Positions 8,386-15,693 of a stretch of 22,102 nt of DNA are shown here, one piece after another (positions within the stretch are counted from its first letter, which is position 1; the number at the start of each line of letters is the position of its first letter). The notes below the pieces were generated by a model that did not search any database, was not told the origin of the DNA, and worked only from the letters and a program-made list of their open reading frames with translations. A program made the position numbers and the translations under genes. The DNA comes from a virus. The DNA is taken from positions 1-22,102 of IMG/VR virus record IMGVR_UViG_3300027834_000030; one strand, written 5' to 3'.

Positions 8386-9024
8386 CTAACTGCCCGCTTT
8401 TGCTCTCCGTGCTTTTTGTCTCTCTCTTTCGCACGTCCGGCATACACGACCCCCACTTGTGTTTATTCGAAGATTATCCCCGCTCAACGGATGCCCGCGC
8501 TTACACGAGGTCATGGCCTTACGAGCAGCTATTGCCACTTCAATCCCGCTTAGCTCAGAAGCCATTCCCGCTTCTTTTAGGATCTGCCCCACTCGAACAT
8601 CGCTAATACCAAACTTGTTGGCTATTTCTGCTCTTGTTTTACCGCTGGAAGCCAGACGAATTACTTCCGCCTTTTGCTCATCGCTTAACTTCGCTTTTGG
8701 GTTTAGAGCTCCTCGCCAATCCTGAACGCGGACAGTTCTCCCTTTGGAAGACGCATCCTTCATATTGTCAAACCTTGTCCCATAACAAAGATGAGCAGGG
8801 TTTACGCACGAAGGGGTGTCACATGAATGCATCGCATCTAGCTTGTTATCCGTAGACAAGCCATTGAATAAATAAAGGGAAACCCTATGCGCGCCGATTG
8901 TTTTCCCTTTCCAGTAGAACCTCCCATAGCCTCCCTCCGTCGTACTTCCTTTCCATAGCCAGCATCCATTTTCCACTTTGGAAACCTTGGCCATAAAGCG
9001 GTCTAAATCTCTCTGATATCCCAT
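8386..9024 (-). CDS. HNH endonuclease with HTH and zinc-ribbon tail (free-standing homing-type)
   Basis: A 212-aa protein. Residues about 18-95 are an HNH_3-type nuclease: GCWLWKGS, a YGRFYWKG strand pair, AHR, then MHSCDTPSCVNPAHL with the catalytic His-Asn-His core. Residues 112-150 are a resolvase-like HTH (KLSDEQKAEVIRLASSGKTR and following), and 173-205 hold a four-cysteine zinc ribbon (CKRGHPL and CRTCERERQKARR). Such enzymes cut specific phage DNA and spread by homing, often inserted between nin genes. It overlaps the upstream nuclease gene by 22 nt, so an insertion would have had to keep that reading intact. Confidence 0.85.
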   Translation of the reverse strand: MGYQRDLDRFMAKVSKVENGCWLWKGSTTEGGYGRFYWKGKTIGAHRVSLYLFNGLSTDNKLDAMHSCDTPSCVNPAHLCYGTRFDNMKDASSKGRTVRVQDWRGALNPKAKLSDEQKAEVIRLASSGKTRAEIANKFGISDVRVGQILKEAGMASELSGIEVAIAARKAMTSCKRGHPLSGDNLRINTSGGRVCRTCERERQKARRAKAGS

Positions 9025-9332: not shown

Positions 9333-9823
9333 TGCTCAAGCTCCTTGGCCCGCTTAGCGCTGGCGATAATGTCGTTCATGTCGGTTTCTAGGTCTTTGTG
9401 GCCACGCTCCCCAGGCTGTAAGGCTTTCTTTATCAAGTGCTGTAGGGCTGGGTTAGTGACCGCCCACGCTTGGAGAACGTCATAGCAATCTACCCAGACG
9501 CCGGGCTTTATCTCGCGGTGGTACTTACTGTGCTGTTCTTGGGCATCGCTTTCATAGGCGTCGCAGTTCTCGCATACGCCATCATTGGCGACTATGAACC
9601 CAGCGCCATAACTGTTGGCTGGGTAGCTGTCGCCGCAGGCGCATGAAACAACTTGTCTATCGCCCAGCCTATTCGGACAATCCACGCAATAAGCGTCATC
9701 GCCTGCTGAGGGCGGTACGCCGCATTTCTTGCCATCGCTGCACGTTCCTAGCTCTCTAGCCGTTTCGAGCGCTTGGTTGTTCGTTGCGCTGCTGGTGATG
9801 GGGTTTAGTTCGCGTGTGCTCAT
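9329..9823 (-). CDS. Cysteine-rich hypothetical phage protein, 164 aa
   Basis: Two parts are visible. Residues about 27-95 carry nine or so cysteines in pairs (CSDGKKC, CVDC, CAC, CENC), likely one or two zinc-binding knuckles. Residues 108-160 form a helical domain beginning VWVDCYDVLQAWAVTNPAL and continuing HLIKKALQPGERGHKD, a pattern I associate with a common phage domain of unknown function. It sits between two nuclease genes with 4-nt overlaps on both sides, so it is likely part of the recombination/nin set. Confidence 0.65.
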   Translation of the reverse strand: MSTRELNPITSSATNNQALETARELGTCSDGKKCGVPPSAGDDAYCVDCPNRLGDRQVVSCACGDSYPANSYGAGFIVANDGVCENCDAYESDAQEQHSKYHREIKPGVWVDCYDVLQAWAVTNPALQHLIKKALQPGERGHKDLETDMNDIIASAKRAKELEQ

Positions 9824-10236
9824 TGTCCTTGTGCCTCCAAGTAGGCCAGTGCGTGCAATAAAGCTTCCGCATCAGCACCAGTGAATTGCTTTAAGCCAGC
9901 GCGCAACGTGGTGCGCAGCCATTGGGGTTGCATCTGCTGCAGTTCTGGCGAGCGGTGCACTGCGTCATGGCATGTCCTACACAAGCTCATAGCGAAACTG
10001 TCTGGAGCCGTTAGGCCATGCCCGGATAATCCCCAATGCAGGCCGATTACGTGATGCGGGTCGCGGCCAGGGCCTTGGCAGTTGCAGCAGGGTTGGGATT
10101 TAACGAACGCCAGGTATTGCTCACTCCGCCAGCGGCAATCCTTCTGCTTTGCCGACTGAGCCTTTTTACGACGCTTCGCTATCGGCTTGCGGGCCATGGG
10201 CTTCTTGGCCTTGAGGGGCGTTTTGCGTTTAAGCAT
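9820..10236 (-). CDS. YbcO/Ref-like HNH nuclease
   Basis: A 138-aa protein with a very basic N-terminus (about residues 3-33, poly Lys/Arg, probable DNA contact) followed by an HNH/zinc motif: CCNCQGPGRDPHHVIG, then CRTCHDAVH near residues 86-94. This matches the YbcO/Ref group of single-strand or RecA-dependent nucleases in lambdoid nin regions. The ATG at 10236 overlaps the stop of the alternative methyltransferase frame as TAATG and lies 12 nt after the stop of the main methyltransferase frame; AAGGA is upstream. Confidence 0.75.
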   Translation of the reverse strand: MLKRKTPLKAKKPMARKPIAKRRKKAQSAKQKDCRWRSEQYLAFVKSQPCCNCQGPGRDPHHVIGLHWGLSGHGLTAPDSFAMSLCRTCHDAVHRSPELQQMQPQWLRTTLRAGLKQFTGADAEALLHALAYLEAQGQ

Positions 10237-10925
10237 TAGGCGGCATCCTTATTGGCAGAAAGCGAGGGCGTGAAGTGCAGACGCCGCCACGATTGGAATT
10301 TGTCCATTGCCAGTGGCGCGGTATCTGTCCACCCGGCCGGATAGCCCATTAGCCATTCCTGATTGCTCGGGTTCGGCTTTCCAAACACCTGGACAAAAGC
10401 CCGTGCTGCTGGCCATTTCTGCATTGATGCAGCGCTGTAGTTGGCTTTTGTCGTCGGCGTATGCAAGTAGCCAATACCGCTGCCGAACGTGGTCACCACC
10501 CAGGTCTGACGCGCCAAGGGATATTGCTCTGGTTTGGTAACCCATATCCCGGCAGTCTTCGGCCGCTTTTTCGATGGCTCGCCAGCTGACGTTTTCGGCG
10601 AAGACGTACCAGGGAGCAACATCTGCCACGACGCGCCGCATCTCCGGCCAAAGGTCGTCAGCATTGTTGCGTCCAGATGCGGCAGTGCTGAATGCTTGGC
10701 AGGGAAAGCCGCCAGAAACGATGTCAGCGCGTCCACGCCAGGGCAGGCCGTCAAACGTGGTGACGTCGTCCCAGATAGGGAATGGCGGCAAGCATCCATC
10801 ATCTTGGCGCTGCTTGAGCACTTCGATGGCGTGCCGGTGGTTTTCGACTGCGCAGATAGGCCGGATGCCGAGCAATCCAGTGCCGAGCAAGCCGCCGCCA
10901 ACACCTGTGAATAGTGAAAGCTCAT
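10236..10925 (-). CDS. Overlapping second frame, methyltransferase-associated protein (dual coding candidate)
   Basis: A 229-codon frame, shifted +1 from the methyltransferase frame and covering 98 percent of it. Its C-terminal third reads YLHTPTTKANYSAA (153-166) and EWLMGYPAGWT followed by PLAMDKFQSWRRLH (190-217), a signature I know from phage proteins annotated as methyltransferases or their partners; SFLAAFPAKHSA (69-80) also fits that family. ATG 10925 has GGAGG at an ideal 8 nt, better than the GTG of the main frame, and its TAA overlaps the next gene's ATG. Both frames may be translated from one ribosome site. Function unknown; no complete catalytic motif set of its own. Confidence 0.55.
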   Translation of the reverse strand: MSFHYSQVLAAACSALDCSASGLSAQSKTTGTPSKCSSSAKMMDACRHSLSGTTSPRLTACPGVDALTSFLAAFPAKHSALPHLDATMLTTFGRRCGASWQMLLPGTSSPKTSAGEPSKKRPKTAGIWVTKPEQYPLARQTWVVTTFGSGIGYLHTPTTKANYSAASMQKWPAARAFVQVFGKPNPSNQEWLMGYPAGWTDTAPLAMDKFQSWRRLHFTPSLSANKDAA

Positions 10926-10929
10926 TCAC
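10249..10929 (-). CDS. C5-cytosine DNA methyltransferase (compact phage Dcm type)
   Basis: A 226-aa enzyme transferring a methyl group from SAM to cytosine C5, probably protecting phage DNA from restriction. Motif I LSLFTGVGGG (4-13), motif IV GGFPCQ with catalytic Cys77, motif VI ENV (112-114), motif VIII region RQRYWLLAYAD (149-159) and motif X GNGQIPIVAA (207-216) are all present. The space between VIII and X is short, so the target-recognition domain is minimal. It starts at GTG 10929, overlapping the NinB stop as GTGA, but GGAGG is only 4 nt away. Nearly its whole length is overlapped by another open frame (next entry). Confidence 0.88.
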   Translation of the reverse strand: MNELSLFTGVGGGLLGTGLLGIRPICAVENHRHAIEVLKQRQDDGCLPPFPIWDDVTTFDGLPWRGRADIVSGGFPCQAFSTAASGRNNADDLWPEMRRVVADVAPWYVFAENVSWRAIEKAAEDCRDMGYQTRAISLGASDLGGDHVRQRYWLLAYADDKSQLQRCINAEMASSTGFCPGVWKAEPEQSGMANGLSGRVDRYRATGNGQIPIVAASALHALAFCQ

Positions 10930-11381
10930 GCCACCTCCCGATATTCGTCATAGATGGCCAGGGCAGGCTCCGACCACTGCACGCCGTGCTGGCTGCCAAA
11001 GGCATAGATCAGCTCTATCAGTTGGGCGAACTCAGCTTTCCGCATCTTGCTAGTGCGCTTGCCGAGCATGACGAACCCGCCGTTTATGCCTGGGGCGACA
11101 CGCTGCTCGCTGTCTAGGCCGCTGCTAAGAATGTCTTTCCAGTCCTCGGCAGGCAGATAATCCATAGCGCCATTGACCGGCCATTTCACCTGCTTGGCAA
11201 CGTCGCTCAACATGGGCCAAAGTTTTTTGTTCTGACTGACGCTCCGCTTATCCTCCCGATGCCGCAGCGCCACCTCGACCGGGGCTCTCTCAAGCCCCTT
11301 GCCGATGGCTGCGCTAACGCGGGCGATGGCGTACTGCATCTCTTGCAGCGAGGAAACGGGGATAATTAGCTCTTTGCTCAC
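10926..11381 (-). CDS. ninB: NinB (Orf-family recombination mediator)
   Basis: A 151-aa protein starting with GTG 11381 (GTGA overlap with the preceding stop, GGGGT upstream). The pattern VEVALRHREDKRSVSQNKKLW, MLSDVAKQV and FVMLGKRTSKMRKAEFAQLIE is that of NinB/Orf, a dimer that binds single-stranded DNA and helps load recombinase in lambda recombination, replacing RecFOR functions. Length is normal (lambda NinB is 146 aa). It lies between small HTH genes and the methyltransferase in a nin-like gene order. Confidence 0.88.
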   Translation of the reverse strand: MSKELIIPVSSLQEMQYAIARVSAAIGKGLERAPVEVALRHREDKRSVSQNKKLWPMLSDVAKQVKWPVNGAMDYLPAEDWKDILSSGLDSEQRVAPGINGGFVMLGKRTSKMRKAEFAQLIELIYAFGSQHGVQWSEPALAIYDEYREVA

Positions 11382-15096: not shown

Positions 15097-15693
15097 CTAC
15101 CTCCGGTTGTCGTGTTTTGAGTAATGCGCAAATGATTTGCCGTGATTAGGATCGAATCCGTGTTTTTTTCTTGCCGCCAGAATCGCTGCCTCTGCGTCCT
15201 TTAAAGATGTGAAGTACCCAACGCTATGAGCCTTGCGCTTTCCGTTCTTGGACGTGTTAAATTGCGCGTACCATTTTCCAGCCCGCTTGCTCCACGAAAC
15301 CCCGCTTACCCCTGACTTATTTCTGCCGTGCCGGCTCAGGTTTCTGCTATTCATCCCTTGAGCTAACCGAAGGTTTTTCCACGAGTTGTCACGCGCATCT
15401 CTATTAATGTGGTCAATGTCACTTTCGGGCCAGCTGCCAGTCATGTAGAGCCAAGCTAGGCGGTGCGCGGCATAATGCTTATCCAGCAGAACTATTACGC
15501 GGAGCTGGTAACCACCATCTATCGTCCGTAGCGAGCCAGCCTCCTGGTTGGCGTACAATTTTTTGAAAGCCTTAAAATTTGCCTCGCTTTTAAACCACCG
15601 CCGATCCCTGGGCTTCCATGTAAAGCGCCCTGAGTCCGGGCTGTAGTGCAGCAGCTCTCTTACCGCCTCGTAGGTCATGTGATGCGTAGCCAT
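15097..15693 (-). CDS. HNH endonuclease with AP2-type DNA-binding domain
   Basis: A 198-aa free-standing homing-type endonuclease. Residues about 50-125 carry the HNH_3 core (AAHRLAWLYMTGSWP, then DIDHINRDARDNSWKNLRLA, with NSRN). Residues 127-180 are an AP2/ERF-like three-strand domain (GVSGVSWSKRAGKWYAQF, then AHSVGYFTSLKDAEAAILAA). It is the second gene after cro, with AGAGGT at 7 nt before ATG 15693. Such genes are selfish passengers that cut alleles lacking them; here it may also help phage competition. No intron is evident. Confidence 0.87.
   Translation of the reverse strand: MATHHMTYEAVRELLHYSPDSGRFTWKPRDRRWFKSEANFKAFKKLYANQEAGSLRTIDGGYQLRVIVLLDKHYAAHRLAWLYMTGSWPESDIDHINRDARDNSWKNLRLAQGMNSRNLSRHGRNKSGVSGVSWSKRAGKWYAQFNTSKNGKRKAHSVGYFTSLKDAEAAILAARKKHGFDPNHGKSFAHYSKHDNRR

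Follow-up and report, generated by a model that had tools for sequence, protein, structure and literature searches.

C5-cytosine DNA methyltransferases made of two polypeptides have been described, but it is unusual, to our knowledge, for two genes that overlap over a long stretch of the same strand to encode known parts of the same enzyme. In the 1995 paper on M.EcoHK31I, the beta chain, about 176 aa in length, is reportedly encoded in an alternative frame inside alpha. M.EcoHK31I (YGGCCR; Lee, Kam and Shaw 1995, cited in PMC3404938) is a two-polypeptide C5-methyltransferase whose larger chain carries motifs I–VIII and X and whose smaller chain carries motif IX; its target recognition domain (TRD) has been predicted to lie in the larger one (PMC3404938). 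In M.AquI, the catalytic subunit carries motifs I–VIII and a second subunit carries motif IX (PMC3404938). Here we describe a phage locus with two overlapping genes, A and B, whose sequences make it very probable that they encode the two subunits of a single C5-cytosine DNA methyltransferase, with the small domain encoded in the +1 frame of the large-domain gene.

The DNA analysed (the window, 22,102 nucleotides) covers positions 1–22,102 of the IMG/VR phage record IMGVR_UViG_3300027834_000030. A and B overlap over nearly the full length of both genes, and each frame is open for ~226 codons (Table 1). The stop codon of B shares bases with the ATG of the following gene (DUF968/HNH; TAATG), and a NinB-like gene lies directly upstream of the pair. 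Portal, terminase, DnaB-like helicase, O-like protein and CI-like repressor genes in the window mark it as a temperate-phage region. Three HNH-endonuclease-like genes were seen in the 22-kb fragment (8386–9024, 9820–10236 and 15097–15693, all on the minus strand), and no restriction enzyme was recognised among the genes scanned.

Table 1. Features of the methyltransferase locus in the window (positions are those of the whole stretch)
Feature	Position	Strand	Remarks
Gene A (proposed alpha subunit), large domain of a C5-cytosine methyltransferase	10249..10929	-	GTG start, 226 aa
Gene B (proposed beta subunit)	10236..10925	-	ATG start, 229 aa, +1 frame of A
GGAGG Shine-Dalgarno, able to serve the GTG of A and, 4 nt further, the ATG of B	10934..10938	-	sequence
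A motif I, FTGVGGG	10891..10911	-	near-invariant F7, G9, G11, G12, G13
A motif IV, GGFPCQ (catalytic Cys)	10696..10713	-	invariant G73, G74, C77
B constrained small-domain part (~residues 100–217), putative target recognition and motif IX	10275..10628	-	B identity > A identity; A fourfold sites frozen; L005 and L228 carry this segment fused to A
A linker, motifs VIII to X (~residues 156–195)	10345..10464	-	A identity 0.31–0.52, B identity 0.54–0.77
B motif-IX-like element, EWLMGYPAGWT	10326..10358	-	aligned to canonical motif IX by profile comparison
A motif X, GNGQIP, in the DNA just after B motif IX	10294..10311	-	nearly invariant G207, G209, Q210, P212

Compared with M.EcoHK31I, A corresponds to the larger chain, with motifs I–VIII and X, and B to the smaller chain, with a motif-IX-like element. 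Both in the window and in nearly all relatives, B is read at +1 relative to A, which resembles the layout said to be that of M.EcoHK31I. Unlike in that enzyme, B overlaps A almost completely, both genes have a common Shine-Dalgarno with the start of B 4 nt later, and the pair is phage-borne; the recognition region also seems to lie in the smaller chain B, unlike the TRD predicted in the larger chain of M.EcoHK31I. By this likeness, which is one of description and not of sequence and carries no claim of membership, the window pair would work like M.EcoHK31I, its nearest precedent. As in M.AquI, the enzyme would be split into a catalytic chain and a motif IX chain, whereas motifs IX and X are both in the second subunit of M.AquI and motif X of the window is in A, with the two genes read from one DNA segment in different frames. 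A resembles the large domain of M.HhaI and M.HaeIII in sequence and predicted fold, and the motifs follow the same order along the DNA; unlike A, M.HhaI and M.HaeIII each have a TRD and motif IX within their one chain, and no depletion of +1 stops is seen in monomeric relatives.

Homologues were collected by searching IMG/VR with A as the query, which gave 80 loci with an A identity from 73% down to 41%, and further homologues were added from GenBank phages and GTDB genomes. Expected numbers of stop codons were obtained by permuting synonymous codons within each gene, so that protein A and codon usage were kept. Fourfold-degenerate sites were analysed in 49 aligned genes from the window's own clade.

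A matched PF00145 (E=2e-19) and phrog_363 (8e-47), and its predicted model matched M.HaeIII/M.HhaI (E about 1e-11). The original prediction had taken A for an intact C5-methyltransferase. Judged by its motif content, A is the large domain of such an enzyme, with motifs I–VIII (including IV, PCQ; VI, EN; and VIII) and X in one chain, but it is not intact, as the TRD and motif IX are absent between VIII and X, where just ~50 weakly conserved residues leave no room for a TRD.

The openness of frame B was counted in 66 non-redundant genes, leaving aside codon 1 and the 12 final codons. The +1 frame of these homologues contained 2 internal stops against 283 expected under A-preserving shuffling (~5 per gene), with 1 against 113 expected in codons 2–100 and 1 against 170 expected in the remainder. 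The two long same-strand frames of the original prediction were borne out, along with their coordinates, their starts and the TAA/ATG overlap, and stops in the B frame of related loci proved not to be frequent. Nearly all homologues have a +1 frame that is open end to end, and their +2 and antisense frames are broken. When all homologues were counted, the +2 control frame had 1314 stops against 1325 expected, and the single +1 stop present in most rows was the TGA formed by A's own start codon (NTGA). Bacterial and prophage copies (n=60) showed 18 stops in the +1 frame against 250 expected, with zero in 51 of the 60. The +1 stops of 13 ordinary monomeric C5-methyltransferases from the same host genomes, most of which have motif IX in their own frame, summed to 223 against 224 expected. 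A chance open frame in GC-rich DNA was excluded by the codon shuffles, the control frames and the control genes, and on these counts selection acts on B as a second coding frame. It is scarcely credible that there is no B protein and that base composition, codon usage or an RNA/DNA structure merely happens to keep the +1 frame open. Much of the first 100 residues of B does follow A almost freely, as would then be expected, but the 2 stops seen stand against 283 in shuffles that keep both A and codon usage, the +2 frame and the monomeric methyltransferases have no such depletion, and the B segment stands in its own right in two natural fusions (L005 and L228, see below).

Along the DNA the motifs are collinear with the canonical order, I–VIII being in A, IX in B and X again in A, with two frame switches. 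Fourfold-degenerate sites of A were 39–41% identical in codons 20–100, and 73, 60, 87, 89 and 94% identical in the successive 20-codon blocks from 100 to 200 (49 genes). In codons 153–203 of A, conservation was higher in B than in A (e.g. 0.77 vs 0.52). The most variable codon position was the third position of A up to ~codon 135, the first position of A (the third of B) in codons 136–210, and again the third position of A in the final codons; the strongest constraint therefore switches from A to B and back to A. The first 100 residues of B are held open with little constraint on their sequence, and the lightly constrained overprint is the N-terminal half of B together with the VIII–X linker of A. 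The expectation that B would constrain synonymous sites of A was upheld for the C-terminal half and failed for the N-terminal half. Similarity among B proteins forced by A was also considered; it largely explains the first 100 residues and was ruled out for the C-terminal half, also by L005 and L228.

The C-terminus of B matched phrog_35493, phrog_26627 and phrog_1008, and 53–64 of 64 B proteins matched these three PHROGs. B had no family in Pfam or NCBIfam and no match in a profile search of the PDB; its predicted model was poor (pLDDT 55), a structural search with it gave no match, and the model was given no weight in the interpretation. The C-terminal half ends in the conserved pattern NPxxxEWLMGxPxGWTDLxPLxxxKFxxW. 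In a profile-profile comparison with canonical C5-methyltransferases, this element fell on motif IX (LTPRECARLMGFPDTF-like) with a score of 16.4, above all 150 column-shuffled profiles (maximum 14.7); the element is short and the match modest, with an E of 0.03 for one comparison. The methyltransferase-related signature that had been noticed in B is in agreement with this placement of the WLMG element on canonical motif IX. In its C-terminal half, B has the look of the small domain that belongs to the methyltransferase itself, read in a shifted frame and comprising motif IX and a putative TRD, for which there is no room in A and a conserved candidate region in B. A de novo overprint on motif X was excluded, since the conserved part of B matches motif IX. 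The earlier suggestion that overprinting of the methyltransferase C-terminus gave rise to the WLMGxPxGWT family was not supported, in view of this picture of an own small domain, and frameshifted descent, offered beside it, is nearer to reading A and B as one enzyme.

B could alternatively be an independent overprinted phage protein, for instance a regulator or an anti-restriction protein, and not the small domain of A. The missing Pfam/NCBIfam family and structural match would suit such a protein, as would the low-complexity N-terminal half, which is often seen in overprinted proteins. We nevertheless consider it very improbable, as A would then be left without the small domain needed by every C5-methyltransferase, the selected half of B has a motif-IX-like element and forms one ORF with A in L005 and L228, and B has gained motif X in L105, L028 and L180.

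The strongest evidence comes from the two natural fusions, which lie on related phage contigs. The first, L005 (MT837127, human gut), is a single 325-aa ORF in which A continues, without a change of frame, into the C-terminal half of B. Its A part corresponds to residues 1–223 (about 40–46% identical) and its B part to about residues 138–217 (about 50% identical). The second A-B fusion, L228, is 53% identical to L005. Neither fusion retains the depletion of stops in the +1 frame under A, which has reverted to the chance level (13 seen, 14 expected). The fusions form one clade (100/100) in the tree of A, and because this clade is nested inside the window's 27-row clade (100/100), fusion is most simply the derived state. 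The order of motifs in the fusions is I–VIII, X and then IX, which fits the joining of two complete polypeptides. In L105/L229, L028 and L180, motif X (LGNGQVP-like) is found in the B frame after motif IX, and these variants, with IX and X both in B, are closer to M.AquI. Fusion and motif X exchange link the selected part of B to A, and L005 and L228 supply B homologues beyond those forced by A, as the original prediction would have it.

Two further observations concern ORF structure. The B ORFs of L105/L229, L028 and L180 are long (401–505 aa). An apparent one-base frame change in L021:1497-2186 places the A N-terminus and the B C-terminal half in one ORF and leaves the remainder of A without its usual start, which may be a sequencing error or a real variant.

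The most constrained frame goes A-B-A in canonical motif order, and this would also be expected of a single chain made by programmed frameshifting, where the ribosome begins in A, slips +1 into B before the small domain and returns before motif X to give a monomer. We regard such a chain as improbable. It requires two opposite shifts; B keeps its own ATG and an open N-terminal half (1 stop against 113 expected), which slippage does not need; and the order I–VIII, X, IX of the fusions fits two joined polypeptides.

Both chains would be started from one Shine-Dalgarno site. The GGAGG lies a few nt before the GTG of A and about 8–9 nt before the ATG of B, and the two start codons are 4 nt apart (NTGAATG). 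A purine-rich block at -13..-9 of the B ATG and the NTGAATGAG overlap are conserved across homologues. This agrees with the predicted use of one Shine-Dalgarno by two start codons. In some loci codon 1 of A is not a start codon; in most of these cases A can start 9–15 nt upstream, and B keeps its ATG. Phages of Mycobacterium, Bacteroides, Porphyromonas, Sulfitobacter and Synechococcus have stops in the first 30–60 codons of the B frame, past which it is open with the same small-domain sequence; an internal B start is therefore needed there, and an ATG overlapping the 'D-D-I/V' residues of A is a candidate.

In the proposed mechanism, B would supply target recognition and motif IX, and the A and B polypeptides would assemble into one enzyme. 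This enzyme would methylate cytosine in the phage DNA, most likely protecting it from host restriction. The N-terminal ~100 residues of B would mainly be a leader that is tolerated and has only to remain open. The arrangement could plausibly have originated in an ordinary gene when two compensating frameshifts moved its recognition segment to +1, after which each frame may have been extended across the other. It also seems rather likely that the reading applies clade-wide, and that these phage C5-methyltransferases, over many phyla of phages and hosts, are frame-split heterodimers that keep the motif order, with the recognition domain in +1, two starts on one ribosome site, a leader that is only kept open and an occasional escape by fusion.

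In the literature searched, we found no description of a phage-wide frame-split methyltransferase, nor of the family scale, full-length overlap, common start or fusions. The passages found of the GeneTack frame-transition survey (PMC3711429) do not mention a frame-split methyltransferase. The near-total overlap, the common start, the A-B-A switch and the spread over many phyla are apparently new here.

Outside phage records, carriers were found in Pseudomonadota, Actinomycetota, Verrucomicrobiota, Nitrospirota, Acidobacteriota, Bacteroidota, Thermodesulfobacteriota, Patescibacteria and one Leptospira plasmid, and many of the bacterial copies are probably prophages. The copy in the E. coli PCP07014 prophage (L274:2001-2762) is a RefSeq pseudogene with an internal stop in the methyltransferase; frame B has a stop within a few bases of it, so that both frames are interrupted together.

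Each of the 20 annotated records (L001–L004, L006–L012 and L189–L197) has only one of the two frames annotated, A in 13 and B in 7 (e.g. Shamal, phPA-G, Vibrio phage 1.236.O, SOVA965 and Rctr197k), with B mostly called 'hypothetical protein'. PHROG 1008, 35493, 26627 and 27243 are the annotators' frame-B proteins, listed as 'DNA methyltransferase' or unknown, and their entry descriptions do not mention the A/B overlap. Anyone cloning such a phage methyltransferase as annotated would leave out one subunit, and the product may seem truncated or without activity. The more than 100 natural variants, the internal-start variants and the two fusions would provide material for testing how one ribosome site serves two proteins and how an enzyme divides between frames.
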